DNA of 46,831 nt from Candidatus Omnitrophota bacterium (GTDB lineage Bacteria; Omnitrophota; Gorgyraeia; Zapsychrales; Fredricksoniimonadaceae): contig JADFZK010000005.1 in NCBI GenBank assembly GCA_015232565.1, forward strand, positions 1 to 46,831, written 5' to 3'. Position numbers and translations under genes: made by a program. The notes under the pieces were generated by a model that ran no database searches, had not been told where the DNA came from, and was given only the letters and a program-made list of their open reading frames with translations. Of the stretch, positions 5,251-44,115 are shown piece by piece (position 1 is the first letter of the stretch; the number at the start of each line of letters is the position of its first letter).

Positions 5251-5529
5251 ATGATATCTACATTGCCCAGGTCGGTACAAATGCGGGAAAGGGGACAGTT
5301 GACCATTCCTAAAGAAATGCGGGAAGCGCTGAAACTGGACGAAGAAGGCCAATTGAGTGTTTTTACGGTTGGTCAATGCCTGATGCTGACTCCGAAACGT
5401 TTAACCCGGGCCGCCCTAGCTGGCAAAGTTGAAAAGAGCATGAAAGAACAAGCGCTCAGCCTGGAAAGTTTGCTGGATGACTTGAAAGCCGAGCGCAAGA
5501 GCTATTTTCGGGAGCAGCATGGCCGGTGA
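5251..5529 (+). CDS. AbrB/MazE/SpoVT-family antitoxin
   Basis: 92 residues. Residues 10-45 have the swapped-hairpin AbrB signature (MRERGQLTIPKEMREALKL, then GQLSVF), which dimerises and binds DNA. The tail (about residues 55-92) is helical and charged, as expected for the part that wraps and inhibits a PIN toxin. The ATG at 5251 follows AAAGGCGG with good spacing. The stop overlaps the start of the PIN gene by 11 bases. Known role of such proteins: neutralise the cognate RNase and repress their own promoter, here through the 5201-5219 palindrome. No transfer signs such as integrase or direct repeats are seen around it. Confidence 0.9.
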   Translation: MISTLPRSVQMRERGQLTIPKEMREALKLDEEGQLSVFTVGQCLMLTPKRLTRAALAGKVEKSMKEQALSLESLLDDLKAERKSYFREQHGR

Positions 5530-29595: not shown

Positions 29596-31326
29596 GTGCT
29601 TAAAAACGGCGGCGACGGACGTTTGGTGTTTAAGCTGGATATAGGCAATATCTGCAATAATCTCTGCAACAATTGTTATCAGAAGAACTCACGAATTAAA
29701 GGCGATCTTTCATTGGTGGCGGCCAAGAATATTTTGCGTAAAGCCAGAAAAGATCGGGCGTTGTTGATCTTGTCCGGCGGTGAGCCTACCGCCTGGCCAT
29801 CTTTGGCGCCAATATTGACTTATGCCCGTAAGGAACTCAATTTTCAGCATATTCAGCTGGAAACTAATGCGCGGGTGCTTTCTTATCGGCCTTATCTTGC
29901 GGCCCTGATTCGTCTGTTGCAGGATTCCCGCCCTCAGATCGAAGACCGGTTTGTTAATCTGCGGGAAGATTTTTCGTTTCGGGTCAAGATTCATTCTCAT
30001 CGGGAAGAGGTGCATGATGCCGTAAGCAAAGTGCCGGGATCGTGGCGGCAAACTATGCAGGGGCTGGATTTTTTAATTGAGGCCGGGCAGGTGGTAACTG
30101 CTAATACCGTGATCCTGCCGCAGAACTACCAGGATTTACCGGTGATCTCCGATGATCTGCATAAGCGTGGTGTTCTGGCGCAAGAGTTCAGTCAATTGCA
30201 TGGCGGTATGCCGGGATATGATGCGAAAATAGTGCGTTATCAGGTCTTGCAAAGTGTTTTTACAAAATTGCTGGCTCATCGGGATAAAAGGGTTATTTTT
30301 CTGGAGAATGTGCCTTATTGCTATTTGCAGGGGTGCGAGCAGGTAATGGCCGATAATTATTATGCCTCGGGAAAATCCCGCCGGATCCGTTATTATGCCT
30401 GGCCGGGAGTTTGGCGTAAGGATGAGTACAAAAGAGTCCAGTGTCTTCATCGCCGGTCCTGCCGTTATGAATTTGTCTGCCGGGGGGTTGATCCGTACTA
30501 TGTTAAGAAGTTCGGGTGGGATTGTATTAAACCCGCCGCTTGCAAAGAAGAGTGCAAACTGTCGGCAGATAAAAGTTCGCAGCTTTTGGGTGAGCAAGCG
30601 GCAGATGCTTTTGTGCTCTTTAGCGGAGGAGTAGATTCCAAATGTGCCGGGGCGATCTTCGCCGGGAATAATCCGGGCAAGAAAATATTCCTGCTTACCC
30701 TGGATAATAATTGTTTGTATCCCGATAGCAAGGTCATCACCAGGACTGCCCGTGATGTTTTAAAGAAATACCCGAACATCTTCGGGCATGTTTTCTGGCA
30801 GATGCCCAGGGATCTGGCGCGAAAAGAATTTATCGGCCGGATCGCCTATTGGGAAAAGATCAAAGGGTTTAATCCGGGTTGTCATTTGTGCGTAATGACG
30901 GCGCTTTGCGGGGTTATTGGGTCGATTCGTAAATTCGACAGTAAACCCAAAGACTTGATCTATGGTTTCCGTTTGGGAAGTAATTTTCCGAGGATATTTA
31001 TTCACTATTTGGAGCTATTTCTGGCGCAGTATGATTTTATTCTGCATGCTCCGGTGTTGGAATTCCGCGATAAGACCGCGGTCCTGGAACGGCTGGATAA
31101 GATGGGTTTAAGTGCAGAATCCAATCAGCCTTTGTGCCTTTTGACCGATGTGCGTTTTTCCGAAGTTAAAGGCGATGTCAACAATGCTTCCGGTTTTGAC
31201 AGTTTTAATGATGCGCAATGGGAGCGGCAGATCAAAACGGCCAAGGTTTCGGCCGAAGCTTTCTTCGAGTCTTTCTCCCGGGTGCTTCTGGAGCGTTATG
31301 GTGTGGCAAAAACCAGGGAGCTCTGA
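29596..31326 (+). CDS. Radical SAM protein fused to a PP-loop ATPase domain
   Basis: 576 residues from a GTG start after GGGGAG. The N-terminal half is a radical SAM core with C20, C24 and C27 (CNNLCNNC) and the GGE motif in LSGGEPTAWP. A cysteine-rich middle (about 250-330: CYLQGC, CLHRRSCRYEFVC, CIKPAACKEEC) could hold extra Fe-S clusters. The C-terminal half is a PP-loop adenylating domain with S343-GGVDS-S348, followed by GCHLCVMTALCG. PP-loop enzymes activate substrates with ATP, as in TtcA, QueC or ThiI. I do not recall this fusion as a characterised enzyme. It shares the HSHxxEVHDxxxxVPGSWRxT stretch with the radical SAM protein at 35946, so the two are related. Confidence 0.88.
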   Translation: MLKNGGDGRLVFKLDIGNICNNLCNNCYQKNSRIKGDLSLVAAKNILRKARKDRALLILSGGEPTAWPSLAPILTYARKELNFQHIQLETNARVLSYRPYLAALIRLLQDSRPQIEDRFVNLREDFSFRVKIHSHREEVHDAVSKVPGSWRQTMQGLDFLIEAGQVVTANTVILPQNYQDLPVISDDLHKRGVLAQEFSQLHGGMPGYDAKIVRYQVLQSVFTKLLAHRDKRVIFLENVPYCYLQGCEQVMADNYYASGKSRRIRYYAWPGVWRKDEYKRVQCLHRRSCRYEFVCRGVDPYYVKKFGWDCIKPAACKEECKLSADKSSQLLGEQAADAFVLFSGGVDSKCAGAIFAGNNPGKKIFLLTLDNNCLYPDSKVITRTARDVLKKYPNIFGHVFWQMPRDLARKEFIGRIAYWEKIKGFNPGCHLCVMTALCGVIGSIRKFDSKPKDLIYGFRLGSNFPRIFIHYLELFLAQYDFILHAPVLEFRDKTAVLERLDKMGLSAESNQPLCLLTDVRFSEVKGDVNNASGFDSFNDAQWERQIKTAKVSAEAFFESFSRVLLERYGVAKTREL

Positions 31327-31349
31327 TCCCGGAAACTATGGTTAACTAT

Positions 31350-31378
31350 TTGTTTTCTCGGTCGGAATAGTATATACT
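31350..31378 (+). promoter_or_regulatory. Candidate promoter of the main peptide-modification operon
   Basis: TTGTTT at 31350-31355 and TATACT at 31373-31378, 17-base spacer, about 55 bases before the start of the secreted cysteine-rich gene. Confidence 0.5.
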
Positions 31379-31433
31379 TCTGATAGAAAGCGGCAATAGA
31401 TCATTGTTGTGCTAATTGTTGAAGAAAGGGCCT

Positions 31434-32489
31434 ATGCGCTTCATTCTTTGTTTGATCCTGGGATTTTTCTATTTGACGGCGAATGTTCAGGCTGGCCAAT
31501 CTGCTCAATGTACGGTCTCGCCTGACTGCGAGCTAGATTTGCAGGAGTCTATTAGCGATGAGACATCAGGTTTGGCGGCGTTAAAGTTGGGTGATCCAAT
31601 ACCCGATTATAGTTGTACAGCTACTTGTGATTGTTCGGTAACAATATATCCAGCTTCACTTAATCCAATTTGTTTGGCTTTGAGGGAAATAGGCTCAGGC
31701 ACGGTTTTTAATACCATCATTGCGGCAATTGACTCAAATCCTCTTGCTTACGCTGTTGACCTAGGGGTTTTGGATAACAAAGTCAGGCCCTTGTTGGCGG
31801 CGAGTATTTCGGCCCCCACTACTGCGGCCAATGCAACTTTTATCAATGAGCAGGTGGACAAGATAAAGGGTTGGTGGGCTTTCAAAGTTTGTCGCAATCA
31901 GTCTGAATGTGGTAAAGTTGCGAATTCAACACCGATTCCGGATCCGGTCGCACCTGCCTGTAGCGCGTGCTCTGCGATAAAAGACAAGCCGGGCAGTACT
32001 CGTACTGCATGTGCCGATTTTAGTTTTGTGCCAGATTCTAGGTTCCCTGGTTTTGAGCAGGCTTGTCAGGTTTTGAGTTCGCCCGTGTATAACAAAGCCA
32101 CATTTGATGTGTTTTATAGGCAGGTTTGCCCTTCCGGGAATTGTCAGAATACAGCGTCTCGGGTTGCTGTTGCGGGGACTTTTGCTTTGACGTTGGGATA
32201 CAGGTTTAATGGGCTGGATACCTGCCGTCAGTACATAATTGATTATGTGGATCAGGAAGAGGGGAATGTGTGGTCGACCAGCACTTATGGCCTTTTATGG
32301 AATTGCCGGAGAGCTTTTGGCCCCAGCAATGCTCTGGCTATAATCAAGTCTGATCTGACCAAGTGGCAGAAGAAGATGTGCACTTCGGCATGTGATGTCT
32401 CCATACAGGATCCTTTGGTTCAAGAATTCTGTGCAAAGTCTCCTAGTAACAATTATCCCTGGCCAATACCAATTAAACAGGCGCAATGA
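31434..32489 (+). CDS. Secreted cysteine-rich protein of unknown function
   Basis: 351 residues from the ATG at 31434 (GAAGAAAGGG upstream; an in-frame TTG further up is less likely). A signal peptide (RFILCLILGFFYLTANVQA) is followed by about 19 cysteines spread along the mature chain, with pairs such as CTATCDC and CSAC. I recognise no domain. The cysteine density suggests many disulphides or metal sites. The DNA is more A/T-rich than the genes around it. It is the first gene after the candidate promoter, directly upstream of the HxsD-like genes, so it may be a target or a scaffold of the modification system; the pilin-like protein at 44085 is another secreted cysteine-rich candidate. Confidence 0.72.
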   Translation: MRFILCLILGFFYLTANVQAGQSAQCTVSPDCELDLQESISDETSGLAALKLGDPIPDYSCTATCDCSVTIYPASLNPICLALREIGSGTVFNTIIAAIDSNPLAYAVDLGVLDNKVRPLLAASISAPTTAANATFINEQVDKIKGWWAFKVCRNQSECGKVANSTPIPDPVAPACSACSAIKDKPGSTRTACADFSFVPDSRFPGFEQACQVLSSPVYNKATFDVFYRQVCPSGNCQNTASRVAVAGTFALTLGYRFNGLDTCRQYIIDYVDQEEGNVWSTSTYGLLWNCRRAFGPSNALAIIKSDLTKWQKKMCTSACDVSIQDPLVQEFCAKSPSNNYPWPIPIKQAQ

Positions 32490-32517
32490 TATTAGGCGCG
32501 ATCTTTATAAAGGCTGA

Positions 32518-32844
32518 ATGTTGATACGGGTAAGTAAAGAGATCTATCCTCTTGAGGCGGTTTTGCAAGCCTGTTATCAGTTTCTGGAGCGGGCTTATTT
32601 TTTTATAGATATGGACCAGCCGGGTAATAAGATCCGGGTTCATATAACCGGGAAGGGCCGGTCCTTAAATCGCAGTTTCCGGAATATTTTTTTGGAAGAG
32701 TTATTGCATTCGGCTCTCAGGTATCGTTTGGCGGGCCGAAATCGCAAGTTGCGGGAGTATATTGTGGGCAGTGCTCTTTTTTCCCGGGATATGGTTAAAG
32801 GAAAAAAGTTTACCCAGCGAAAGAGTAAAGATGCCCTCAGATGA
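32518..32844 (+). CDS. hxsD: HxsD-like small protein of a His-Xaa-Ser-type system
   Basis: 108 residues. The pattern IYPLEAVLQACYQFLERAYF, then IRVHITGKG and FLEELLHSALRYRLA, matches what I know of HxsD, the small companion protein of His-Xaa-Ser radical SAM systems, in which a Tyr-initiated helix, a beta strand pair and a C-terminal helical segment are conserved. Its role is unknown; it may recognise the precursor leader. The gene overlaps the next one by 14 bases. Confidence in family is moderate because it rests on memory of short motifs. Confidence 0.68.
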   Translation: MLIRVSKEIYPLEAVLQACYQFLERAYFFIDMDQPGNKIRVHITGKGRSLNRSFRNIFLEELLHSALRYRLAGRNRKLREYIVGSALFSRDMVKGKKFTQRKSKDALR

Positions 32845-33061
32845 AGCAACAGCTTGGCGTTTGCTGTTTGACAAGCGTGTGTATAATCTACGCGCAGTAC
32901 GTAAAGCGGTTAAAGCTTTTGGCCATTTGGCGCGTTTTCAGGTGCGCAGTTCTGGTAATTTTATTGAAGTGTCAGGTGCGGGGAAGAATGCCCGGGTATG
33001 TTCATTGCCGGATGAATTCGCGAATTATGTGCTGGGGGTGTTATGTCAGGGCGGAGGTTAA
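32831..33061 (+). CDS. Second small HxsD-like protein
   Basis: 76 residues from the ATG at 32831, in frame within a longer open frame, chosen because earlier starts would overlap the upstream gene deeply. It reads LLFDKRVYNLRAVRKAVKAF, then FIEVSG and LPDEFANYVLG, a shortened version of the HxsD pattern (Tyr-led helix, beta segment, final EFxNYVL helix). It overlaps the preceding gene by 14 bases and the HxsB-like gene by 19 bases. Two HxsD-like proteins in a row suggest a heterodimer or two leader-recognition subunits. Confidence 0.6.
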   Translation: MPSDEATAWRLLFDKRVYNLRAVRKAVKAFGHLARFQVRSSGNFIEVSGAGKNARVCSLPDEFANYVLGVLCQGGG

Positions 33062-34518
33062 AGGAAGCGGGGGATCTTAAGTTTCCGTATGCTTTCTTTC
33101 GATTTAAGAAGTTGGGGCGCGGTTTCTTATTAACCAATGAGTCTGGCGAGTTTGTTATTTTGAGCCGGGCTGAATTTGAGGCGCTTTCCTCGGGTGATCT
33201 GAAAACTGTTTTTCCTCGTGCTTACGAGGTAATGGAGCGAAAGAATTTTATTCGGTCGGTTATTGACCGTCAGCAGTTGAGTGAGCGTTACGCGGCCAAA
33301 TATTTTGTGGGCGGCGGCACCAGTTTGCATATTGTTGTTCTTACTTTGCGCTGTGATCAAGCTTGCGTTTATTGCCATGCCAGCGCGAAGTGTGGGGATG
33401 GAAAAGAACTGGATATGCTTTTGGCCACGGGTAACACAGTGGTCGATAAGATATTCGGTTCCCCGGCGCAGAGGATAAACATCGAGTTTCAGGGCGGCGA
33501 GCCTTTATTGTGTTTTGCTGGTTTGCGGAATATTGTGCTTAAGGCGCGGGAGCGGGCGAAAAGCCTGGGGCGGGTGGTAACATTCACCGTGGTTTCCAAT
33601 CTGGCGCCCTTGAACGGGGAAATGTTGCGGTTCTTTGTCAGGCACCGAGTGCAGGTTTGTACTTCGCTGGATGGTCCGCGCCGTTTACATGATCGCCAGA
33701 GGCCCCGGGCAGATGGCCGCTCTTCTTACGAAATTGTGGTGCGCGGCCTTAAGCGTTTGGCTAAGCTGAAGAAGGGCCACTCGGCATCGGCTTTGTTAAC
33801 CGTTACCCGGAATTCTTTATCTTGTTATCGTGGAATAATTGATGAATATTTGGCCCGGGGTTTTACCGGAATACATTTGCGGCCCTTGAACCCATTAGGG
33901 GCGGCCGAGAAAAAGATCGGTTCAATAGGTTATTCGGCCCGCGATTTCTTGCGGTTTTATGTGCAGGCGATGGAGTATATTCTGGCCATTAATCGTCAGG
34001 GTCGAAGCTTTAACGAACGAACGGCAGTGATCTTCTTAAGAAAGATCCTGGGGGTTGACGATCCGGGCTATCTGGATATACGCTCTCCGTGTGGCGCCGG
34101 GATCGGGCAGATAGTATACAACTATAACGGGGATGTTTATACTTGTGATGAAGGGCGTATGCTGGGGGCGGTGGGGGATCATTCTTTTCGCATCGGGCCT
34201 TTGGGCGCGTTCTCTTTTGCTGATCTGGCGCGTAACCCGGTAGTCAAGGCTTGTGCCACCGCATCTTGTTTGGAGGTGGTTCCGGGGTGCTCGGAATGTG
34301 TGTATAAACCTTATTGCGGGGTGTGTCCGGTGTTGAATCATGCAGTGAACGGGAATCTATTCCGCTCGGCATCTTTTGGTTGTGATATTCGCAAGGGTAT
34401 ATTGGATTATATTTTCAGTAAACTGGCTGAGCCCGGGGATCGGGCGATCTTGTATCAATGGATCGGATTTAAGAAAGACGCTTTTTTGGGTCGCGAGCCA
34501 AACCAAGGAGGCTTTTGA
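33043..34518 (+). CDS. hxsB: Radical SAM/SPASM peptide maturase, HxsB-like
   Basis: 491 residues. The N-terminal 100 residues (FPYAFFRFKKLGRGFLLTNESG) match the HxsB-type recognition region. The radical SAM cluster is C104, C108 and C111 in LTLRCDQACVYCHASAKC, followed by FQGGEPLL. The C-terminal SPASM part has CGAGIGQIVYNYNGDVYTCDEGRML, then CSECVYKPYCGVCPV, ligands for auxiliary Fe-S clusters. HxsB proteins modify His-Xaa-Ser precursor peptides; the precise reaction is not known to me. Directly downstream lies the candidate precursor, joined by a one-base stop/start overlap and a strong AAGGAGG. Confidence 0.85.
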   Translation: MSGRRLKEAGDLKFPYAFFRFKKLGRGFLLTNESGEFVILSRAEFEALSSGDLKTVFPRAYEVMERKNFIRSVIDRQQLSERYAAKYFVGGGTSLHIVVLTLRCDQACVYCHASAKCGDGKELDMLLATGNTVVDKIFGSPAQRINIEFQGGEPLLCFAGLRNIVLKARERAKSLGRVVTFTVVSNLAPLNGEMLRFFVRHRVQVCTSLDGPRRLHDRQRPRADGRSSYEIVVRGLKRLAKLKKGHSASALLTVTRNSLSCYRGIIDEYLARGFTGIHLRPLNPLGAAEKKIGSIGYSARDFLRFYVQAMEYILAINRQGRSFNERTAVIFLRKILGVDDPGYLDIRSPCGAGIGQIVYNYNGDVYTCDEGRMLGAVGDHSFRIGPLGAFSFADLARNPVVKACATASCLEVVPGCSECVYKPYCGVCPVLNHAVNGNLFRSASFGCDIRKGILDYIFSKLAEPGDRAILYQWIGFKKDAFLGREPNQGGF

Positions 34519-34820
34519 TGGCAAACAAGAAAAAGGTTAAAAAGACGGGCGTAATCCCCCGTATCTCAAAAGAAGTCAAGGATTTCATGACTGATGAAGA
34601 GGGTAAGATTAAAAAGAAAGACATTGTCCGGCTGGGCGTATCTTTGGCTGCTCTGGGGATGATGATCCAGCCGGAAGCCGGGGCGGATGCGTCCTGTGGG
34701 GATGTGGTTACTGATGTTCATAGCAATGCCCTGGTTAAGGACGACAAATGTTATCAGCACGCCAATACCCACGCCAATCATTGCAGTCATAACAGTCATA
34801 GTCAGGGTGGGTGGTGTTAG
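34518..34820 (+). CDS. Candidate RiPP precursor peptide with His/Cys-rich core
   Basis: 100 residues. It starts at the ATG at 34518, preceded by AAGGAGG with ideal spacing, implying strong translation. Residues 1-50 form a basic, charged leader (DFMTDEEGKIKKKDIVRLG) running into a short hydrophobic segment (VSLAALGMMIQ). The tail from about residue 58 has four cysteines (C60, C78, C89, C100) and six histidines (H68, H81, H85, H88, H91, H94) spaced every three or four residues in His-Ala-Asn, His-Cys-Ser, His-Asn-Ser and His-Ser-Gln units, ending GGWC. This resembles the His-Xaa-Ser core of HxsA-type precursors but is shorter and adds cysteines. Metal binding or thioether formation are possible fates. 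Confidence 0.75.
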   Translation: MANKKKVKKTGVIPRISKEVKDFMTDEEGKIKKKDIVRLGVSLAALGMMIQPEAGADASCGDVVTDVHSNALVKDDKCYQHANTHANHCSHNSHSQGGWC

Positions 34821-35911
34821 CGGGTTGTCAGAACGAATTGCAAATTTCCCTGACTGATCGTTGTCAGTTGTCCTGCCGGTATTGTTATCTTGATCGTGAT
34901 GTGCAGTATGATCTATCATGGCCCGCGGCTAACAAGGCGGTAAGCGACTTTCTGCAAGGTGCGGCCGCTCCCAGGACTATTTCTTTTTATGGCGGAGAGC
35001 CGCTTTTGGCTTTCCCTTTGCTTAAGAAAATAGTCAATGCCGTGCGCCGCAATTATTCTTCTTCCAGTGTTGCGCTTAATCTTGCTACTAACGGTATTTT
35101 GCTGGATCGTAAGGTCGCGGAGTTCTGTGCGGCGCGTGCGATCAGTGTTTCTTTGAGCCTTGATGGCGTTAAAGAGCGGCACGAGAGCCAGCGGGCAGGT
35201 GGCGGCTCGGGTGGCAGTTATGCCGCGGTTTTACGGGCCAGCCGGCATTTACAGGTTTGCCGGGTACCGGTAGTGGCCAACATGGTGATCCGGCCAGCGG
35301 ATGCGGCTGGTTGGCTGGATGATTTTCTTCATATTATTGACCTTGGTTTTACCCGGGTCCATTTACTGCCGGATGTGACCGCGGTCTGGAGGCCGGTAGA
35401 TATAAATTGTTTTCGGCGGACATTAGCTGACTTTGTGCGGTGTAACATTGACCGTTTTCAGACCGGAAACAGTAAGGTTTTTGCGCTTGAACAGGTGCGC
35501 AGGCTTTTATATCGTGATCATAAAGCGCGGACAGTAGTATGTAATAAACGTATTTTAGCGGCAGATGGCCAGTACTATGGTTGTGATAAAGTCCTGGGAT
35601 GTGCCGCAAGCCGGCGGGAAGAGTACCAGTCCGGGGAGGCCTTGGTGAGATTTGATCAGCTCAAACGGCGCAAGGTTTTAAGCAAGCTCAGGCGTAAATT
35701 GCCGATGGCGGGGAGTTGCCAAAGTTGCCGTTGGCGGGGGGTCTGTTTTTGTCCGGCCGGGATCCCTTTGGTAGCGGCTTTCGCAAAAAATCCCGAGCGG
35801 TGTTGGCGTTCATTCTGCCGTATATCCGGGTTATTGCTTACGGCTTGTTCCCGGATCATTTCGGCTGTGGGTAAGGACCCCGGGTTTCGTCGGATTTATG
35901 GTTTACACTAG
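34811..35911 (+). CDS. Radical SAM protein with C-terminal SPASM-like cysteines
   Basis: 366 residues from a GTG at 34811 (another GTG three bases later is equally possible), overlapping the precursor stop by ten bases. The cluster motif C18, C22 and C25 (LTDRCQLSCRYCYLD) comes almost at the N-terminus, followed by SFYGGEPLLAFP. The C-terminal part has CNKRILAADGQYYGCDKVLGC and CQSCRWRGVCFCP, consistent with auxiliary clusters. It has no N-terminal recognition domain, so it would need a partner, perhaps an HxsD-like protein, to find its peptide. I do not assign it to HxsC because the HxsC-type cluster context I recall is different. Confidence 0.85.
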   Translation: MVLAGCQNELQISLTDRCQLSCRYCYLDRDVQYDLSWPAANKAVSDFLQGAAAPRTISFYGGEPLLAFPLLKKIVNAVRRNYSSSSVALNLATNGILLDRKVAEFCAARAISVSLSLDGVKERHESQRAGGGSGGSYAAVLRASRHLQVCRVPVVANMVIRPADAAGWLDDFLHIIDLGFTRVHLLPDVTAVWRPVDINCFRRTLADFVRCNIDRFQTGNSKVFALEQVRRLLYRDHKARTVVCNKRILAADGQYYGCDKVLGCAASRREEYQSGEALVRFDQLKRRKVLSKLRRKLPMAGSCQSCRWRGVCFCPAGIPLVAAFAKNPERCWRSFCRISGLLLTACSRIISAVGKDPGFRRIYGLH

Positions 35912-35945
35912 TGTAGAGTAGAGTGCTTCCGGGATAATTTGCACG

Positions 35946-36677
35946 GTGGTGGATATGGGTAATACTTTGGTGATCGATCTGGATGGCAAGTGTAATTGCC
36001 ATTGCTTATTTTGCATGAAGCAGGAGGTGTTGGCTCGAGCTCCGGGTCGTTCTCTGACTGGTACAATGCACTTGATTCGTCAGGCCCTTGCGGCTGGGCA
36101 GGCAGGAGTGGATTTTTTTGGTGGTGAACCGACTATGTATCCTTTTCTGAAGAAAGCCATCTTGTTTGCCCAGGATAATGGTTTGCAGTGTTCTTTGGCT
36201 ACTAATGCAATAAAGTTTTCGTCGCCCCGATATGCCTTGAACTTCTTTCAGGGTCTTTCATTGAAAGGTTTGCGTACAACTTTGCATAGCCATAAGGCTG
36301 AGGTGCATGATCGTATCACAGGTGTGCCGGGAAGTTGGCGCAAGACAGTGCTGGGTATACGTAATATCCTGGTTTATGAGCAGAAATTAACGGTCAACAT
36401 AGTCATTAATCGTTGGAATTATCAAGATCTGGCTGCTTGTACGCAGGCTATCTATGATTTAAAAGTTTTGGGTATAAAGTTTTCTGCCCTGCAGAATGCA
36501 GGTGGAGCTTTGGCTCACCGGGATCTTTTTGTTAAAGACGATGAATATGGCGCTTATCTTTTGGATGCTTTGCGTCTGGCTTCTCGGCTGGGGTTTTATA
36601 TGATCGAGCTGGAGCGGATGCCGAAAGATATTCTAAGTAAAGCGCGGCTAGCGAAGGTTAAGTTCAAAAGTCATTAG
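35946..36677 (+). CDS. Short radical SAM protein without SPASM domain
   Basis: 243 residues, starting GTG at 35946 or ATG at 35955. The cluster motif is C16, C20 and C23 (GKCNCHCLFCMK), with FFGGEPTMYP following. It ends after the core barrel with no auxiliary-cluster cysteines. The stretch HSHKAEVHDRITGVPGSWRKT, then NYQDL, is shared with the radical SAM/PP-loop fusion at 29596, so the two proteins are paralogues, one with and one without the ATPase. A stand-alone core of this size suggests a simple hydrogen-abstraction enzyme acting on a small or presented substrate. Confidence 0.85.
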   Translation: MVDMGNTLVIDLDGKCNCHCLFCMKQEVLARAPGRSLTGTMHLIRQALAAGQAGVDFFGGEPTMYPFLKKAILFAQDNGLQCSLATNAIKFSSPRYALNFFQGLSLKGLRTTLHSHKAEVHDRITGVPGSWRKTVLGIRNILVYEQKLTVNIVINRWNYQDLAACTQAIYDLKVLGIKFSALQNAGGALAHRDLFVKDDEYGAYLLDALRLASRLGFYMIELERMPKDILSKARLAKVKFKSH

Positions 36678-36690
36678 GTTCGGGGGACTT

Positions 36691-37605
36691 ATGAAGGATT
36701 CAGTTTTTTCAGTGGACGGATTCGGTAAGACCGGGGCATCCAGCCGGGACATTAAATTCGTGAAGGATATTACTCAGCTATTGCAGTATTTTGATCCTTT
36801 ACAGAAAACTTATTTTGAATATTCATTTAAAGTGCGGCCTTCCGGGCTTGATCCGGCTGTGCGGGTCCTTAATATTGATGGCAATGGCTATTCAAATAGC
36901 AGTCCTAATTTATTTCAGGCCCGGCTGGATATTTTCTCGGCGATTCTCAAGCGATTCTCCAATAACAAGAAAGCCGCCGGCATTGTGCGTGCTTTACGGA
37001 AAGCGGCTGCGTTTCCCATGGATTTGTATTTTGGAGTGGATTCATTGGCTGGACAGCCGACTTTTGCTTTTTGGCTGGTCTTTGGCGGTGTTAAAAGAGA
37101 CGGCAAATTAAATTATGTTCGTTATGATGTCCCGGCTATTATGCGCGAGCTTTTGCAAGCGGCCGGGATGGTGGTTCCCGTGATCGGACGTGCCCGGGTC
37201 TTGAACTTTGGCTTTGATGTGGGTCCTGATGAGTGTTTTTATAAATTGTATTATTTGTGTGATAAGGCGTCTGTTAGCGCTGGATGGGGCGCGGTTATCG
37301 GCCGGATCAAGAAGGAGATGGAGGGGGTGAAGTTATTTATTTTTCGCAGTGAGTTGTTCGACCGTGAAGGGAAACTGCGGAAAGAAAAATTGTTTGTGGA
37401 GTTCCTGGAGGATATTCCGCTTTCGTCCCGGGCCGCCCTGAATGAATTAATGCCAGGGCTTTTTGCGGTGGCGGGAACGCAGGGCCATTTGCCGGCTTCG
37501 TGTCGAGCAGCGGCTATGCGAGGATTAAAGGCGATCGGCGGGCGCTTGGCGCTGGCAAGTTTTGAACAGGATGGCACCATTACATTTTATATTCGTCCGC
37601 AATAA
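36691..37605 (+). CDS. Unknown conserved protein, first of a paralogous pair
   Basis: 304 residues, no signal peptide or membrane span. I do not recognise the family. It is clearly related to the next gene: shared blocks are LNIDGNGYSNSSP with MNIDGNAFSCKSP, FPMDLYFGVDS with HPMDIYGGLEV, FWLVFGGV with FWLIYGGA, and RSELFDREGKL with SGELFDARGRV. Alternating hydrophobic strands and spaced Asp, Asn and Tyr residues suggest an alpha/beta barrel enzyme rather than a structural protein. It lies 14 bases after a radical SAM gene and is co-directional with the whole cluster. Confidence 0.8.
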   Translation: MKDSVFSVDGFGKTGASSRDIKFVKDITQLLQYFDPLQKTYFEYSFKVRPSGLDPAVRVLNIDGNGYSNSSPNLFQARLDIFSAILKRFSNNKKAAGIVRALRKAAAFPMDLYFGVDSLAGQPTFAFWLVFGGVKRDGKLNYVRYDVPAIMRELLQAAGMVVPVIGRARVLNFGFDVGPDECFYKLYYLCDKASVSAGWGAVIGRIKKEMEGVKLFIFRSELFDREGKLRKEKLFVEFLEDIPLSSRAALNELMPGLFAVAGTQGHLPASCRAAAMRGLKAIGGRLALASFEQDGTITFYIRPQ

Positions 37606-37621
37606 AGGGAAGGCCTGTCGG

Positions 37622-38533
37622 GTGATATTAAAACGGGTAAATGATTATTTGGATACTTGTGTTATTTCCCGTAGGGATCGGGAATGGATGGCGCGCGGCA
37701 TGGGCCGTTTTGTCCAGGCTGATCCGCAAGGCTTAACCAAATTCCAGTTCGGGTATGGGTCAGGCCGCGGCTTGCTTGCCTCCGGCGCGCTGGCGATGAA
37801 TATAGACGGCAATGCATTTTCCTGTAAATCGCCAGAGGCTTTTGCCGGACGGATCGGGTTGTTTAGAAAAACCTGGGGCCGGCATGCCGGCGGCCAGGTC
37901 ATGTCCGCCGCAGCTTTGGTGGCGAGCCGGCATCCCATGGATATCTATGGTGGGCTGGAGGTGCGGTCAGGCCGTCGGTTTATATGGTTCTGGTTGATCT
38001 ATGGAGGGGCGGATAAACAGGGTCGGGTGCAATATTGTCCGGTGGACCGGTGCGCCTTGACAACCGATATTCTGCGGTCTGCCGGTTGCCGAATGCCCGC
38101 AATATGGCGCCCCAAGGCTTTTCATTTGGCTTTGTGCCATGATGGCAGGGATATAGGGTACGAGGTTTATTATGAAGGCATCCCGTCCGGCTTTAAACTG
38201 GGGAAGGAACAGCGTAAGTTGGGATCGCTTTTTACCGGCCGGCCAAGTTATTTTTGTTCCGGCGAATTATTTGATGCTCGGGGGCGGGTTCGGCAAAGAA
38301 GGATCTTCCTGTATTTTCCGGCTGGAGTATCAACGGGTTCCCGGGAAGCGCTGCGGGATCTGTTATTGCGGATAAAACGCCTGGGAACGTTGGCTTTTCC
38401 GGTGGATGATATGGCGGGGGCGTTAGCCCGGGTTCCGGGTGAACTTAATTTGTTCGGGTTCTCCGATAACGGAGATTTTGCAATGTATCTGGATACCTGG
38501 AAAGGCTATGAAAATAATTGCGCCTTTGGTTAA
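37622..38533 (+). CDS. Unknown conserved protein, second of a paralogous pair
   Basis: 303 residues from the GTG at 37622, chosen because AAAGGGAAGG lies just before it and the length then equals that of its paralogue; longer in-frame starts would run into the upstream gene. It shares the IDGNxxS, HPMDIYxG, FWLIYGG and ELFDxxGR blocks with the preceding protein over most of its length, but the two have diverged strongly, so the duplication is old. The last 26 bases overlap the start of the U32 gene. Two diverged copies side by side suggest a heterodimer or two related steps. Confidence 0.8.
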   Translation: MILKRVNDYLDTCVISRRDREWMARGMGRFVQADPQGLTKFQFGYGSGRGLLASGALAMNIDGNAFSCKSPEAFAGRIGLFRKTWGRHAGGQVMSAAALVASRHPMDIYGGLEVRSGRRFIWFWLIYGGADKQGRVQYCPVDRCALTTDILRSAGCRMPAIWRPKAFHLALCHDGRDIGYEVYYEGIPSGFKLGKEQRKLGSLFTGRPSYFCSGELFDARGRVRQRRIFLYFPAGVSTGSREALRDLLLRIKRLGTLAFPVDDMAGALARVPGELNLFGFSDNGDFAMYLDTWKGYENNCAFG

Positions 38534-39449
38534 TGCCGACGAAGTGTTGCCGCTGGCCGCCGCCGGGGCCGATGAATTTTATTTCGGGCTGGGCCTGACG
38601 CGTAACATCGACGACCGGTCCGGGTTGAACGTTATGGCAATTAACCGGGCCAATTTGCGTTCTATTCCCGAGGCGCGCAGGGCGATCGCTTTGGCGCATA
38701 AGGGTGGCCAGAAGATGGCGGTATGTTTTAACAGCGAAGTTTATTCGCCTGTGCAGATCCGCGAGATCATTCGTTTGTTGCGACTGATCCCGGCAGTTGA
38801 TTCCGTGGTGGCTTGCGACATTATGTTGATCCGCCGTATTCGCCAGGCAGTGCCGGACTTGGCGATCACTGTTGGCACACGAGCTAATATAATGAATTCC
38901 GCGGCGGTTGATTATTATAAAGGGCTGGGTGCGCGCCGTTTTGTATTGCCTCGCCATCTTGACCTGCGTTCTGTGCAGATGATCCTGGCTGGGAATAAAG
39001 GGCTGTCTTTCGAGATATTTGTGAAGAATGAAGATTGTCCGTATGTTAACGGCCTTTGTACTTTAACGCATAACCTGTGGAATGATGCGCAGGGTAGTCA
39101 GATATTTTGCCGCGGTTCGGCCTGGAAGCGTGTGCATTCCTGGTGCGGCGGGCCGGCGGGTGAAGGGAAAGAGCAGGCAGTAAATGCTTTTATGCAAAGG
39201 CTGGTGCCGGGATGTGCCGCCTGTTTTCTACCGGAAATAGCGCAGGCCGGGAACCGGAGGGTGGCGTTAAAATTAACCAGCCGATTAAGGCCGCTTCCGG
39301 ACAGGCTTAAGGATGTGATCTTTTTTCGGCAGATCAGTGGTCTTTTAAAGCTCAATTTGCGTTCAAATGCGTTTCGGACCCGTTGTTGTCAGGCGTACTT
39401 GACGGTGTTTGGGCGGAGTTGCAGCCGGAATTGTTATTATGAAAAATAA
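38508..39449 (+). CDS. U32-family (UbiU-like) Fe-S protein
   Basis: 313 residues from the ATG at 38508, preceded by GGAAAGG and giving the typical family beginning (KIIAPLVNADEVLPLAAAGADEFYFG). The U32 barrel continues with VMAINRANLRS, a GTRANIMNS segment and the cysteine region NEDCPYVNGLCTL, FCRG, WCGG, PGCAACFLP and C-terminal RTRCCQAY/CSRNCYYE. U32 proteins were first called peptidases, but UbiU, UbiV, RlhA and TrhP are hydroxylation enzymes or partners that hold a 4Fe-4S cluster; UbiUV works without oxygen. Here, next to a second U32-like protein and inside a peptide-modification cluster, an anaerobic hydroxylase role is a reasonable inference. Confidence 0.82.
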   Translation: MKIIAPLVNADEVLPLAAAGADEFYFGLGLTRNIDDRSGLNVMAINRANLRSIPEARRAIALAHKGGQKMAVCFNSEVYSPVQIREIIRLLRLIPAVDSVVACDIMLIRRIRQAVPDLAITVGTRANIMNSAAVDYYKGLGARRFVLPRHLDLRSVQMILAGNKGLSFEIFVKNEDCPYVNGLCTLTHNLWNDAQGSQIFCRGSAWKRVHSWCGGPAGEGKEQAVNAFMQRLVPGCAACFLPEIAQAGNRRVALKLTSRLRPLPDRLKDVIFFRQISGLLKLNLRSNAFRTRCCQAYLTVFGRSCSRNCYYEK

Positions 39450-40224
39450 TATGCTGGAAAAAGCCCTGGCGGTGTCGACGCTTGATGATCTATCCGTACG
39501 CACGGTAAGCGGGTATCAGCGGATATATTTTGGGGATGAATTTTGTGAGGAGCTTTTTCCCTCGGCTGGCGATATTCGCTCGGTTTTGCGTTGGTGCGCG
39601 GGAAAAGGCCTGGCCGTATCAGTAGTTACGCCTTTTTGCAGTGAGGCGCGTTTCGACCGGATCTGCCGGGCTGTTACCGGTATGCCTGCCGGGGTAGAGC
39701 TGGTTTGTAATGATCCGGGCCTTCTGGCCCGGGCTGGTCGGGAGCCGGGTCGACGTGGTTCATTGGTCTTGGGCCGTTTAATGTTGCGGAGCAAGCGGGA
39801 TCCCCGTTTGGGAACGCTGGCGGCTTCTGAAGATGTTAGGCGTGCGTTGGCTGTTTCCTGTCTGGATGATCCCGCCTTTCAGCGGTTGCTTCTTTCTTAT
39901 GGTGTTAAAAGAGTTGAATTGGACAATTCTTTTCAGGGTTATTTGTTTAATTTGATCCCGCAATTGCGGGCGGCCTTGCACTGGCCGTATGTTTATCTGA
40001 CCGCTACCACAGAGTGCTTGTTCCGGCCGGCCTTGCGGAAGACGGGCTGTGGTCGGGAGTGCCGTTCCGGCCAGCTGGTTTCGAAAATAGCCAGTGCTGG
40101 CGTGGCTATCATCACGTCAGGCAAAGCCGAAGTATATCGCAACACCAGGATGCCTTCGTCCGCGCAGTTGCAGGCTTGGGGCGTGGATCGCCTGGTGTAT
40201 GCCCGGGAGAAGAATATATGTTAG
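39439..40224 (+). CDS. U32-like (UbiV-like) partner protein
   Basis: 261 residues from the ATG at 39439 (an ATG at 39451 is also possible), overlapping the preceding gene by 11 bases. The sequence YQRIYFGDEFC, then SVVTPFCSEARFDRI, GVKRVELDNSF, YVYLTATTECLFRPAL and the pair GCGRECRSG resembles UbiV-type U32 proteins, which lack the protease-like C-terminal part and form heterodimers with UbiU. Cysteines placed in the second half could ligate a 4Fe-4S cluster. The family call is less certain than for the upstream gene. Confidence 0.65.
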   Translation: MKNNMLEKALAVSTLDDLSVRTVSGYQRIYFGDEFCEELFPSAGDIRSVLRWCAGKGLAVSVVTPFCSEARFDRICRAVTGMPAGVELVCNDPGLLARAGREPGRRGSLVLGRLMLRSKRDPRLGTLAASEDVRRALAVSCLDDPAFQRLLLSYGVKRVELDNSFQGYLFNLIPQLRAALHWPYVYLTATTECLFRPALRKTGCGRECRSGQLVSKIASAGVAIITSGKAEVYRNTRMPSSAQLQAWGVDRLVYAREKNIC

Positions 40225-41270
40225 CGGTCATGCAGATCACTGAACGTTGTGATCTGCGCTGTCACTATTGTTATTTACCGCCGGCTTCCGCGCGGGATAT
40301 GCCTTTGGCGCTGGCTTTGCGGACAATCGACCGTTTGGTGGATATTGCCCGGAGCCAAAAGGTGAAAGACCCGGTCTCAATTTGTTTTCATGGCGGGGAA
40401 CCCACTTTGGTGCTGGCCCGGGTGGCCCGGGTGATGGCTTATGCACGAAGGCGCGGGATCAACGATTTTATTATTGCCACCAATGGCGCCGGGCTTGACC
40501 GTAAAATGGTTGATTATATTGTGGCTAACCGGATTAGTATAATTATGAGCGTGGACGGAGTGGCGCCGGCCCATGATCACCAGCGGGTCTTTCCCGATGG
40601 CCGGGGATCATGGCGGCTGGTGGATCGTGCGCTTGATCTGCTGTCGGAACATGCCGATTCCTGGGCGGCCGGTTTACGGCGTAATCCGTTCCGTTTTCGG
40701 GTTACACTTACTCCGGCCAGTAGTGTTTTCCTGGCGCGGACGGTGCGTTATTTAGCGGCCAAACCGTTAGCGCGGCATGGATATATCACCCTGGTCCCGG
40801 GCAATTATCCCGGAGCCAGGTGGCCGGAGTACAAAGAGTTATTAAAGTTGTTCAGGGGTCAGGTTGAAGAGATCAAAGGCTTATTTCGGGAATGTGATCT
40901 GGCTGGACAGCCGCGCCCCAGGGTGTGTCTGAATGAGTGTTTAGGGGCCGCCAGTACATCTTTGGGGTATTTGACTGCTACTCAGGCCGAGCCTTTTTGC
41001 GGCCCGGGAGAACAGGTCATGGGCGTAAGTATCGACGGGCGTATCTATGCTTGTCATTTACGGGCGGTTAATTGTCAGGAAAAGGATAACGACCTTTATT
41101 GTGTCGGCACGGTTCAGAAGGGCTTAAGTCAGCCGTTGCAGGACGGGCTTTTTACTGTCCTGGGTCGGAATCCAAAATGTTCCTGTTTATACTGGAATGC
41201 CCGGGAGTCGGGTTTGCCGGAAACACCGGTCCGCGCCAGCGCGGCTCTTTACGAAGCGTGGTGTTCATGA
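40218..41270 (+). CDS. Radical SAM/SPASM protein
   Basis: 350 residues from the ATG at 40218, overlapping the upstream gene by seven bases. The cluster motif C11, C15 and C18 (ITERCDLRCHYCYLPP) is near the N-terminus and is followed by CFHGGEPTLV, TNGAGLD and MSVDGVAPAHDHQR, typical of the SPASM maturase group. The C-terminal part has FCGPGEQVMGVSIDGRIYACHLRA and later CSCLYW, fitting an auxiliary cluster. The next gene begins within its stop codon (ATGA), so the two are translationally coupled and may form a pair. Confidence 0.87.
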   Translation: MLAVMQITERCDLRCHYCYLPPASARDMPLALALRTIDRLVDIARSQKVKDPVSICFHGGEPTLVLARVARVMAYARRRGINDFIIATNGAGLDRKMVDYIVANRISIIMSVDGVAPAHDHQRVFPDGRGSWRLVDRALDLLSEHADSWAAGLRRNPFRFRVTLTPASSVFLARTVRYLAAKPLARHGYITLVPGNYPGARWPEYKELLKLFRGQVEEIKGLFRECDLAGQPRPRVCLNECLGAASTSLGYLTATQAEPFCGPGEQVMGVSIDGRIYACHLRAVNCQEKDNDLYCVGTVQKGLSQPLQDGLFTVLGRNPKCSCLYWNARESGLPETPVRASAALYEAWCS

Positions 41271-42340
41271 ACAAGTTAACGGTCCGAAAAGTTAAACTGG
41301 CGTTGACCACGGATTGTAATCTTTCCTGCCCGTATTGTTTTGTGGAACAGGATGAAGGCGTTATGTCCTGGGGAGTGGCCCGGGATGCGGTCGACCTGTT
41401 GCTGCGATCGGCGGGCCGGGAGAAATTGTTGTCTCTTTATGGTGGTGAACCTTTGTTGTGTTTCGACCTGGTCGCACGCGTTGTGCGGTATGCCCGCGTC
41501 CAGGCTGGCAAAACGGGCAAGATCCTGACTATAAATTTGTGTACCAATCTGCTTTTGCTGGATCCGCAGATGGCTCTTTTCTTTGCTCGTGAAGATGTCA
41601 AGGTCATCGTCAGTGTGGTTGGACTGCGCCGCGATCACGACCGTATTCGGCTATCGGCCACAGGGGTTGGCTCATATTCGGGAGTTGTCAAGAACCTGCC
41701 TTTGCTTTTTGAATATTTGCCCAGGTTAAATATCGGGGCGGCTTTTTGTGTGCATCCATTAACGGTCGGGTCGCTGTTAATCAATTGGGCTCATCTGTTG
41801 GAGCTGGGGTTTAGGCATGTGAATATTGAGATCATTCGTGATCAACATGGCTGGACCGAAAGGCGTCAGAGTTTGTTCGCGGTGGCTATGAAGGCAATAG
41901 CCCGGGAAGTGCTGATTAGAGCGAGTAGTGCGGATCCGGTATATCTAAATCCGGTAAATTGGGAGATCCGTAATGGGTTATTAACTCGTCCTGGGGCGTC
42001 CTGGTGCCCTTTCGAATATTTTCTGGAAGTTTATCCGCGCGGAGGCGTGGCTTGCTCGCCTTTTTTGCATAATAGTCCTGATATCGCGCGTTATCAGGTG
42101 GCGGTTCAGCCCGCCAGGGTGGCGCGTCCGGCGTATTGTAATGGCCAGTTAAGGCCCGCTGTTTGCGCAGAATGCCGGCAAAAATATTTGTCGGCAGAAT
42201 GTTCTTTCCCTGGTGCGGACCAGGTCCGTCGGGAGTATTTACGCCAGGCAGTGGCGGTGGCCCGGGCCTTGCAGTCTTCATCCCGCAGGCGCGATGTTCG
42301 GCGGTATCTGGATTCAATAAGGCAGGAGGTATGTTTCTAA
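41267..42340 (+). CDS. Radical SAM protein with C-terminal cysteine region
   Basis: 357 residues from the ATG at 41267, which overlaps the previous stop as ATGA. The cluster motif is C17, C21 and C24 (TTDCNLSCPYCFVEQDE), followed by SLYGGEPLLCF and MALFFARED. The C-terminal region has WCPFEYFLEVYPRGGVACSP and YCNGQLRPAVCAECRQKYLSAEC, a SPASM/twitch-like cysteine set. The overall plan resembles the protein at 34811 (short N-terminus, GGEPLL, strong C-terminal cysteines). It is the sixth radical SAM protein of the cluster. Confidence 0.86.
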   Translation: MNKLTVRKVKLALTTDCNLSCPYCFVEQDEGVMSWGVARDAVDLLLRSAGREKLLSLYGGEPLLCFDLVARVVRYARVQAGKTGKILTINLCTNLLLLDPQMALFFAREDVKVIVSVVGLRRDHDRIRLSATGVGSYSGVVKNLPLLFEYLPRLNIGAAFCVHPLTVGSLLINWAHLLELGFRHVNIEIIRDQHGWTERRQSLFAVAMKAIAREVLIRASSADPVYLNPVNWEIRNGLLTRPGASWCPFEYFLEVYPRGGVACSPFLHNSPDIARYQVAVQPARVARPAYCNGQLRPAVCAECRQKYLSAECSFPGADQVRREYLRQAVAVARALQSSSRRRDVRRYLDSIRQEVCF

Positions 42341-42377
42341 TGTCGGGAACTGATCGTAACTTTTGTGAAATGATAAT

Positions 42378-43286
42378 ATGTCAATAAGCCTGGAGCTTCT
42401 GTTGTTCCTGGGAATTATCGTCTTGGGGGTGGTTTCTTTTCGTCAGGATGTCCGGACCAGTCGCATATCGAATGTATGGATGTTGCTGGCTTTGGGGTAT
42501 GCTCTGGTGGTGAGGTTGTATTATATTCTCCCGGGTATCGAGGGCTTGGTTTTCAGGCCGCAGAGCCTGGTTAACTGGGTGGTTAGCCTGGTGGTAGCGG
42601 TCTTTTTCTGGCGCAAGAAATGGTGGGGCGGAGGTGACGCCAAGCTTTTTGTTTGTTATGTGGCGTTGATCCCAAGCTCGCGTTATGGTTTAGTGTATTT
42701 CAGTCATTATTTCTCGGCGTTCCTGCTTTTGCTGAGCACGTTCATTCCGGCGGCGTTATGGATCATGTGGCGGGCACGTAGGGAATTGTTTCTTCCTTCG
42801 GCCGGTAATGTTGCGAGTGTACCAGCCCGGACCCGGCGTCCCTGGCAGGAAGATCTGCGGGTAATGGCTGGTTTTGCGGCGCTTTTTTTTGCTACGCATT
42901 GGTTGGCGAAAAGCCTGGGAGCTTACGTGCCGCTTTTGGGTTCTTGGGTCTGGTTGTTTTACTTCATTATTAGTAAAGGTTTGCGCCGGTTGTTTCGGGT
43001 GCACCCGTTCGCGGTTGTGGCGGTGTGGTTATTATCTGTTGTGGGCATGTTATATTCTGCGGCGGATGTGTGGGGTATTCTAAAGCCCCTGGGATTGAGC
43101 TTCTTGTCGGCGGGGGTATTCCTTTTTCTGTCTGGCCAGGTATTTAGTGCGGTGGATGAGCATCTTACGCGTGTTCGTGCGCAAAATATGGCTTTTGCCG
43201 GATGGCTGTTCCTGGGAGCCTTGTTGGTCTGGTTCTCACGCGATATATTGTTTTGGTTAAATTGGTTGCGGGGTATATTTTCCTGA
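42378..43286 (+). CDS. Type IV prepilin peptidase (A24 family), enlarged
   Basis: 302 residues with about seven to nine hydrophobic spans. The two catalytic aspartates of the GxGD family are present: D24 in FRQDVRTSRISN and D87 in WWGGGDAKL. Spacing and the small soluble loop match TadV/CpaA-like peptidases, but the protein is about 130 residues longer than those, with extra membrane spans after residue 160. Family role is removal of the leader from type IV pilins at the inner membrane. A Flp-like pilin gene lies 1.8 kb downstream on the opposite strand and is the obvious substrate candidate. Confidence 0.85.
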   Translation: MSISLELLLFLGIIVLGVVSFRQDVRTSRISNVWMLLALGYALVVRLYYILPGIEGLVFRPQSLVNWVVSLVVAVFFWRKKWWGGGDAKLFVCYVALIPSSRYGLVYFSHYFSAFLLLLSTFIPAALWIMWRARRELFLPSAGNVASVPARTRRPWQEDLRVMAGFAALFFATHWLAKSLGAYVPLLGSWVWLFYFIISKGLRRLFRVHPFAVVAVWLLSVVGMLYSAADVWGILKPLGLSFLSAGVFLFLSGQVFSAVDEHLTRVRAQNMAFAGWLFLGALLVWFSRDILFWLNWLRGIFS

Positions 43287-43299
43287 CAGGAAAGGTTGG

Positions 43300-44115
43300 A
43301 TGAAAAAAGGGTTAATTAAACAGGACCATGAACTGGCTGCCGACCTGGCTTTGGTTGATCAGAAGCGTGCGGCATTAACTGCCGCGGTGCGGGTCAAAGG
43401 ACGGATCGTGCGGCCTCCGTTGAAAATGGCGGTGGGTTGGAGCGGGGGTAAGGATTCCATGGCGCTGGTGCAGGCGGTGGCGGCCTTGCCAGGAGTACAA
43501 ATGTTCTTGTTTAATATCCAGGATAAATTAATGCGTTATTCCATCGCGGCGCCGTTTAATCCGGCCTTGATCCGTATGCAGGCTTCTTGTTTAGGTTTGA
43601 CAATCAAGTCGGCAGGTCTGGAGGGCGATTATCGGGCCGGACTGGACCGTTTGTTGCGGCGGTATGTCCGTGAAGGGGTGGATGCCCTGGGAATGGGGTA
43701 TATTGCTTCCCGCGGACAAAGGGATCTGGTCCATGACTTGGCCAGCAGGCATGGCCTGTTCTGTTTTGAGCCTTTTGTCGGGCGTTCTCATGGTGCGTTG
43801 ATCCGGGAAAGGCTGGCTTCAGGTATTCAGGCGATAATCGTTGGTATAGACCCTCGGGTCTTGGACGAGTCCTGGCTGGGGAGAACGGTGGATAAGGCTT
43901 TCGTAGATAATTTAAAGCTTTGCCGTGGAGCCAGCCTGTGCGGCGAGAACAACGAGTATCAAACCTTGGTGGTGGATGGGCCGCTGTTCAAGAAAAAGAT
44001 CGAGATAATTTCCGGCCGGATGATCAAAGTGCGCGGCCGGGCGTATCTTTACGTGGATCGGGCTCGGGTGGTAAACAAGAAGGTTTATTCTTCACAGCCA
44101 ACGATCGTGAAATAA
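43300..44115 (+). CDS. PP-loop ATPase, diphthine-ammonia ligase (DUF71/Dph6)-like
   Basis: 271 residues from the ATG at 43300 after AGGAAAGG. The PP-loop is S48-GGKD-S53 (VGWSGGKDSMAL). The C-terminal family signature is CGENNEYQTLVVDGPLFKK, close to the GExGEYHT-type motif of DUF71. In eukaryotes and archaea Dph6 amidates diphthine on elongation factor 2, but bacteria lack diphthamide, so bacterial members must act on something else, probably an ATP-dependent amidation. A 45-residue N-terminal extension precedes the fold. It closes the peptide-modification operon, and its last 31 bases overlap the convergent pilin gene. Confidence 0.85.
   Translation: MKKGLIKQDHELAADLALVDQKRAALTAAVRVKGRIVRPPLKMAVGWSGGKDSMALVQAVAALPGVQMFLFNIQDKLMRYSIAAPFNPALIRMQASCLGLTIKSAGLEGDYRAGLDRLLRRYVREGVDALGMGYIASRGQRDLVHDLASRHGLFCFEPFVGRSHGALIRERLASGIQAIIVGIDPRVLDESWLGRTVDKAFVDNLKLCRGASLCGENNEYQTLVVDGPLFKKKIEIISGRMIKVRGRAYLYVDRARVVNKKVYSSQPTIVK

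Follow-up and report, generated by a model that had tools for sequence, protein, structure and literature searches.

His-Xaa-Ser (Hxs) peptide systems are named from genomes, and HxsB and HxsC are described as putative maturases in the available part of PMC9062424. Titles and abstract openings in the open literature, together with parts of one paper, yielded no experimental Hxs product. Classical operons on Aeromonas and Klebsiella plasmids have four hxs genes only, hxsD-hxsB-hxsC-hxsA, and their HxsA carries a Sec-type signal (by eye). Seven plasmid regions served for comparison: two are annotated with this order, three with a subset of it or hxsA2, one lacks hxs names and one lacks gene annotation; four HxsA-type proteins from plasmids begin like ordinary signal peptides, again by eye. 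At E ≤ 1e-30, 340 plasmid records contain an HxsB-like match (315 are from Klebsiella), and the one Klebsiella region examined reads hxsD-hxsB-hxsC-hxsA.

Here we analyse a 46,831-nucleotide stretch of an Omnitrophota genome (C78:1-46831, hereafter the window; the genome is 2.64 Mb and 93.9% complete), in which a 14.5-kb block of 16 plus-strand genes encodes an HxsB-type maturase and a His-rich precursor. The closest named relatives of both proteins are Omnitrophota records. Judged by its profile matches, the block encodes a peptide system of the HxsB type, which we class as a variant outside the classical Hxs group. It joins a His-rich peptide to six radical S-adenosylmethionine (SAM) proteins and two predicted prenyltransferases, so that a heavily modified, lipid-tagged surface peptide is the likely product. 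We give an even chance to the full reading, an exchangeable island that likely makes a peptide with several modifications, prenylation among them, which is exported to the surface beside the pilus machinery. This reading is built on gene content, synteny, the fold match of a structure model, a separate peptidase clade, an island-free site and co-occurrence across genomes. Titles and abstract openings in the open literature contain no description of such an island.

Gene content and comparison with classical Hxs operons

The block shares with classical operons an HxsB above its equivalog cut-off, an HxsD-like partner and an exported-type precursor with HxS repeats. It differs in having no HxsC by profile, an HxsB in a separate clade (quick tree) and five extra radical SAM proteins, and in adding the predicted prenyltransferases, a U32 pair, PP-loop proteins and a prepilin peptidase (A24). 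Of the NCBIfam variant models, HxsD_rel is exceeded; HxsA3 and HxsC4 are not. The genes, with profile scores and cut-offs, are as follows.

29596..31326, +: fusion of a radical SAM protein, HxsC-like in its N-terminal half, with a PP-loop domain (SGGVDS, residue 343); PF04055 54.3 bits; best NCBIfam match HxsC4 NF038332 72.2, cut-off 500; TIGR03977 62.9, cut-off 267.9
31416..32489, +: secreted Cys-rich protein, likely extracellular partner; signal-like N terminus by eye, no Pfam or NCBIfam match
32518..32844, +: HxsD-like protein 1; TIGR03976 48.6, cut-off 50
32831..33061, +: HxsD-related protein 2; HxsD_rel NF038315 59.2, cut-off 41
33043..34518, +: HxsB radical SAM/SPASM maturase; TIGR03978 468.9, cut-off 370
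34518..34820, +: His-rich HxsA3-like precursor; NF038309 41.7, cut-off 65
34811..35911, +: radical SAM protein, PapB-like; PF04055 56.3; NF047865 129.7, cut-off 340
35946..36677, +: short radical SAM protein, HxsC-like, 243 residues, six Cys in total; PF04055 35.9; TIGR03977 63.5, cut-off 267.9
36691..37605, +: predicted ABBA/DMATS-fold prenyltransferase; fold match of structure model
37571..38533, +: diverged paralogue of the prenyltransferase; 27% identity, E 5e-25; profile A1 115.6 bits, E 2.2e-33
38508..39449, +: U32 protein, UbiU-like; PF01136 64.8, cut-off 22.4; CX6CX16C
39439..40224, +: U32-pair partner with a UbiV-like four-Cys pattern (C36, C193, C204, C208); no Pfam match
40218..41270, +: radical SAM protein; PF04055 53.2
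41267..42340, +: radical SAM protein; PF04055 40.6; likely start ATG 41267
42378..43286, +: island-type prepilin peptidase (A24); PF01478 28.7, cut-off 26.5
43300..44115, +: Dph6-like PP-loop ATP pyrophosphatase; PF01902 111.6, cut-off 23.2; TIGR03679 92.4, cut-off 197.3
44085..45677, −: pilin-like Cys-rich protein at the island flank, class III-type start G/QSVLEY; assigned by motif, no Pfam or NCBIfam match

The block is bounded by a response-regulator gene ending at 29552 and by the convergent pilin-like gene, which abuts its end. Nine of its 15 gene junctions overlap once two starts are corrected, that of the precursor to ATG 34518 and that of the last radical SAM gene to a probable ATG 41267, which overlaps the preceding stop in a reading frame open from 41099. 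An original prediction, made from the sequence of the window, had proposed an expanded Hxs-like cluster of same-strand, mostly overlapping genes, and its inventory largely stands; the secreted Cys-rich gene (31416-32489) is an addition to it. All listed genes are present on one strand; the six radical SAM proteins exceed the PF04055 cut-off of 29.5 (HxsB scores 32.7), and the HxsB-like maturase, the prepilin peptidase and both PP-loop modules (SGGVDS in the fused protein, SGGKDS in the Dph6-like one) are borne out. Of two proposed HxsD-like small proteins, one passes its profile and the other falls just short. The proposed U32 pair is supported by PF01136 for the first partner; the second fails Pfam and is recognised by its UbiV-like cysteines. 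The cluster is HxsB-type and far larger than the four-gene plasmid operons, but it is not a plain expanded Hxs system, because no block protein reaches the HxsC equivalog and HxsD and HxsA3 lie below cut-off. Nor is size alone unique, since large versions with several radical SAM genes are common among related genomes; these, labelled with our own profile and mostly with CxxxCxxC required, give approximate counts, and the Pfam check of the labels covered the window and one protein of one relative.

Predicted prenyltransferases and their distribution

Two adjacent genes, previously noted as unknown paralogues, are indeed paralogous and are now predicted to encode prenyltransferases. The structure model of the first product matches the ABBA/DMATS fold (PT-barrel). 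The second is a predicted prenyltransferase by its similarity to the first and by its match to profile A1, of which it is not a member.

We then searched 384 sampled Omnitrophota genomes, 35 of which contain HxsB at E ≤ 1e-60 (26 of them over the equivalog cut-off). Profile A1 matches three (G000, G054, G207), and a second family, A3, matches four (G034, G139, G250 and, weakly, G389). The tie between A3 and A1 comes from hhalign (68.8%, E 4.5e-5), and two of ten A3 rows reach Pfam Trp_DMAT without significance (best E 0.11). All seven are among the 35 HxsB genomes, with the prenyltransferase 1-14 kb from HxsB, and the genome-wide search found neither family in a genome without HxsB. Because the profiles were seeded from islands (the window and G139), the count is reduced to five of five other genomes, about 4e-6 by arithmetic uncorrected for kinship; that search, before which G034 and G250 were already known from islands, found none elsewhere in the sample. 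The precursor ends in GGWC in all six strong carriers. At 25 other Omnitrophota precursor loci, several with little flank, the weak G389 protein is the only match (tail GQW). In several hhalign and hmmsearch comparisons the scores of the window, G054 and G207 prenyltransferases, and of G034, G139 and G250 with A3, hold by construction, these being members of the profile; independent support comes from the paralogue comparison, the A1 search including the second paralogue, and G389.

Several results weigh against this assignment or its generality. The second paralogue is altered at conserved residues (K185E, D176C, K233R, E237Y). Pfam and NCBIfam give no match for either candidate, Pfam prenyltransferase models match none of the 23 A1 rows, and what few weak Pfam matches the A1 rows have lie in unrelated families (two rows reach the best E, 2.3e-4). 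A sequence search against solved structures gave no match for the prenyltransferase candidate. Since A1 and A3 occur in only seven of the 35 HxsB genomes, they are not core components. Five Elusimicrobia loci (L051, L054, L055, L058, L059) have a GGWC end and no profile-detectable prenyltransferase in 10-kb flanks; hhalign leaves the case for Elusimicrobia proteins of 285 residues as prenyltransferases unproven (11.4% and 1.0%). Iterated profiles recover related proteins in G015, G006, G019, G012, G054 and G207, and the precursor tails of G015 and G012 differ.

ABBA/DMATS prenyltransferases include the RiPP (ribosomally synthesized and post-translationally modified peptide) enzymes PatF, PagF and LimF, with which the window family has no detectable sequence-family match. 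Those enzymes work alongside cyanobactin partner enzymes; the partners in the window are radical SAM proteins. According to the available part of PMC10853753, PalQ, the enzyme that prenylates a C-terminal Trp in another RiPP, belongs to the isoprene synthase superfamily and not to the ABBA fold.

Precursor and its partners

The precursor, whose only family match is the sub-threshold HxsA3 score, has a leader reading ...TDEEGKIKKKDI, then a hydrophobic stretch, then a core reading ...HANTHANHCSHNSHSQGGWC. An Omnitrophota homologue is 69% identical, and the leader and HxS/HxN tail are common to homologues adjoining HxsB. The family plan is a leader around E(E/D)G, a hydrophobic stretch, often with an A-x-A-like end, and an H-x-S/N-repeat tail that mostly ends in an aromatic residue or GGWC. 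Precursor reading frames of this form lie near HxsB in 53 of 59 stretches (41/47 plus 12/12), including two (G206, G091) whose tails read oddly and may be frame-shifted; a stricter filter retains 44, and L036 and G214, alike in gene order, are taken as one to give 58 distinct stretches. The core neighbours had been expected to recur in related genomes, and they do co-occur there.

In a quick tree with SH-aLRT (Shimodaira-Hasegawa-like approximate likelihood ratio test) support only, HxsB of the window groups with candidate-phyla relatives, apart from six plasmid HxsB proteins and L060. The model of HxsD-like protein 1 has a ferredoxin-like β-α-β-β-α topology (predicted local distance difference test score 86.4), with weak fold matches. 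A homologue of the secreted Cys-rich protein adjoins the precursor in congener G003, and a simple rule places secreted or anchored Cys-rich proteins close to HxsB or to the precursor at a fair share of the loci; the rule missed the window's own 31416-32489 gene because the gene caller started it too late.

After HxsB, L050, L052, L053 and L056 carry three long consecutive precursors (about 265-315 residues, many H-x-N/S) in which Ala replaces the conserved leader Gly. A Myxococcota precursor (L047:1405-1827) has a twin-arginine-like leader, TRRQVLTG, where others have ITKKDII or VSKETIL. One genome (G014, L074/L075) has two HxsB genes about 17 kb apart in one region, each with its own precursor. 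Directly upstream of HxsD, L036, L035, L186, L192 and L194 encode a small secreted protein with a TYYPSPYG-like motif; a YYPSP scan of the window's contig gave no match.

Radical SAM, U32 and PP-loop enzymes

Each of the six radical SAM proteins has a single CxxxCxxC by motif scan. The window's own genome has 42 PF04055 places at E ≤ 0.001, so that about 0.2 would be expected within 12.7 kb by simple arithmetic; the block has six, and the cluster is therefore not due to chance.

In the first U32 partner, CX6C is conserved in seven of seven proteins, and the CX16C extension is read from the window protein only. The second, with no NCBIfam match either, keeps its four cysteines in six of six, in UbiV-like order, and the two genes are also adjacent in relatives. 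The available part of PMC6747719 describes UbiU-UbiV as O2-independent hydroxylases with one 4Fe-4S each and with the cysteine patterns CX6CX16C and CXnCX10CX3C. The pair resembles them in these cysteines; unlike them, its first partner lies far below the equivalog cut-offs (51.9 against 440 for UbiU, 16.3 against 275 for UbiV). Low-scoring PF01136 matches occur on island-type contigs of G000, G030, G053, G019, G027, G004 and G006, those of G004 and G006 being partial and perhaps other barrels. Solved-structure searches with both U32 proteins and the PP-loop half of the fused protein gave nothing useful.

Dph6 amidates a modified histidine (diphthamide), and the His-rich core is therefore a tempting substrate for the Dph6-like protein. 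The diphthine-ammonia ligase equivalog is not reached, and the link to HxsB is weak, because Dph6-like genes over cut-off occur in eight of 55 genomes and only three of their nine places are near HxsB. The patchiness of both DPH6 and U32 pairs also counts against the main reading.

This enzyme set brings in the main rival explanation, which we consider unlikely: that the precursor is a scaffold for a small redox cofactor, metallophore or electron carrier, later released, and that the prenyl group makes the product membrane-soluble. Pyrroloquinoline quinone and mycofactocin are built on a peptide scaffold in this way. Many sequential enzymes, a hydroxylase-like U32 pair, PP-loops and a prenyltransferase do resemble a quinone-like pathway, to which relatives add DegT aminotransferase, PanE-like reductase, AMP-binding enzyme, deacetylase-like and glycosyltransferase-like genes. 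However, relatives have up to about 20 copies of the HxS core, which would be unusual for a scaffold with a single site; the precursor is accompanied by a secreted Cys-rich protein and has an export-like leader; and A24 is the only peptidase recognised in the window's island.

Island site and prepilin peptidase

The position beside a pilin gene and the separate clade of the prepilin peptidase are new relative to the original prediction. In congener G001, which has no HxsB-level match, the response-regulator and pilin-like genes end 80 bp apart, against 14.5 kb in the window. Congener G002 has these two neighbours as well, there 30.3 kb apart around a different island; the HxsB of that island falls in an 18-row tree group that excludes the window HxsB. 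Islands of another genus (g11; G013, G021, G023) lie downstream of T2SSE/T2SSF-type genes and before a pilin gene and genes that we take, by motif and order, to be pilM-pilQ; the Pfam check there covered T2SSE, MshEN and T2SSF. This locus is island-free in G031 and G026, which have no HxsB match (genomes 51% and 69% complete). Prepilins, T2SSF and A24 lie directly upstream of HxsD in Parcubacteria L041, and G207 has four prepilin-like genes upstream (by eye). Guanine-plus-cytosine content (island 0.506, flanks 0.524 and 0.515) is too close for horizontal origin to be argued from base composition, and we dropped that argument.

Accessory gene content differs greatly between islands, as it would if an ordinary HxsB-type system had been joined by unrelated enzymes clustering by chance at an integration hot spot. 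We regard this as quite improbable. The genes overlap on one strand, among the 384 genomes both prenyltransferase families are confined to those with HxsB, and G207, from another family, repeats much of the arrangement: HxsD, HxsD, HxsB, secreted Cys-rich protein, GGWC precursor, radical SAM, prenyltransferase-like, two radical SAM, prenyltransferase, radical SAM, A24 and short radical SAM.

The island peptidase, which shows the two-Asp motifs of prepilin peptidases, passes PF01478 as TadV/PilD enzymes do, but belongs to a separate island-associated clade. A24 matches occur in 51 of 55 genomes (its own included), many with two kinds. In a tree of 48 rows (20 housekeeping, 28 island-type), from which one 95-residue fragment was dropped before building, 27 of the 28 island-type rows lie on one side of a branch with 100/100 support; L041 A24, beside a T2SSF gene, groups with housekeeping rows. 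The window protein is on the island side, among the longest branches, which makes its exact place unsure and tempers the clade argument. With L041 and a 95-residue fragment in L051 counted, 29 of 59 stretches have an A24 no more than 25 kb from HxsB; among the 40 that extend at least 8 kb downstream, 26 do. Of island-type A24 genes off HxsB contigs, five (L162, L164, L166-L168) stand among several radical SAM and other island-type genes, L163 has one radical SAM neighbour and L165 none.

Prepilin-type processing of the window precursor was rejected: a scan for a G/FVSKE-like site with a hydrophobic stretch fails on it and on 31 others, and 13 of 45 precursors pass. In a control, 15 of 1,500 other proteins pass, nine of them pilin-like and one the G019 precursor. 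Many precursors elsewhere (L085, L088, L092, L076 and others) read DEDG/FVSKE plus a hydrophobic stretch, near the prepilin cleavage motif; in genomes that mostly have the island prepilin peptidase, these are possible pilin-RiPP hybrids by their leaders.

Next in rank among the rivals, and improbable in our view, is that the enzymes really act on the neighbouring class III pilin-like protein or on other pilins: radical SAM, glycosyl-type and prenyl enzymes would decorate the pilus, and the Hxs core would be a passenger. Islands beside a pilin gene in two different genomic settings, with their own prepilin peptidase clade, speak for such decoration. Yet the HxsB-precursor pairing is far more constant than pilin adjacency: the pilin-like gene occurs in 36 of 55 genomes, some without HxsB, and lies within 30 kb of HxsB in nine of the 21 of these 55 relatives that have a near-full HxsB match. 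The pilin link of the island could also be a shared insertion spot, which would count against the main reading.

Proposed pathway

In the prenylated surface-peptide reading, we infer the order of steps, target residues, export and function as follows. The conserved DEEGKI leader is likely the binding site of HxsB and the HxsD proteins, and the core, rich in His, Ser, Asn and Cys, would be modified by the radical SAM enzymes, HxsB included. The U32 pair may hydroxylate it without O2, and the PP-loop enzymes may add amide or sulfur. Alkylation of the GGWC tail would be the work of the prenyltransferase, with Trp the most likely target and Cys or His possible ones. After that, the internal hydrophobic stretch would carry the peptide across the membrane and the leader would be cut off at an A-x-A-like site, an export reading made by eye, which weakens this step. 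The prepilin peptidase may serve the adjacent pilin-like protein or another prepilin-like substrate.

A broader proposition, which we hold only tentatively, is a new class of prenylated radical-SAM RiPPs, in which the HxsB family and ABBA prenyltransferases make a lipid-anchored surface peptide from a His-Xaa-Ser/GGWC peptide, with cassettes swapped like serotype loci beside a pilin gene in host-dependent candidate phyla. The locus itself offers defined, testable chemistry in the residue that the predicted prenyltransferase would alkylate, the action of HxsB on His-Xaa-Ser and a possible action of U32 enzymes on peptides. It also suggests swappable peptide-modification cassettes at a pilin locus in a phylum whose type IV pili the available part of PMC10066038 connects with attachment and predatory lifestyles; counting terms in the main text of that paper found no mention of radical SAM, RiPP, His-Xaa-Ser or prenyl.

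Elsewhere in the window, a small AbrB-like gene followed by a PIN-like gene (5281-5971) resembles a VapBC toxin-antitoxin pair by eye, and 11520-17345 encodes a secreted-looking protein of 1941 residues.

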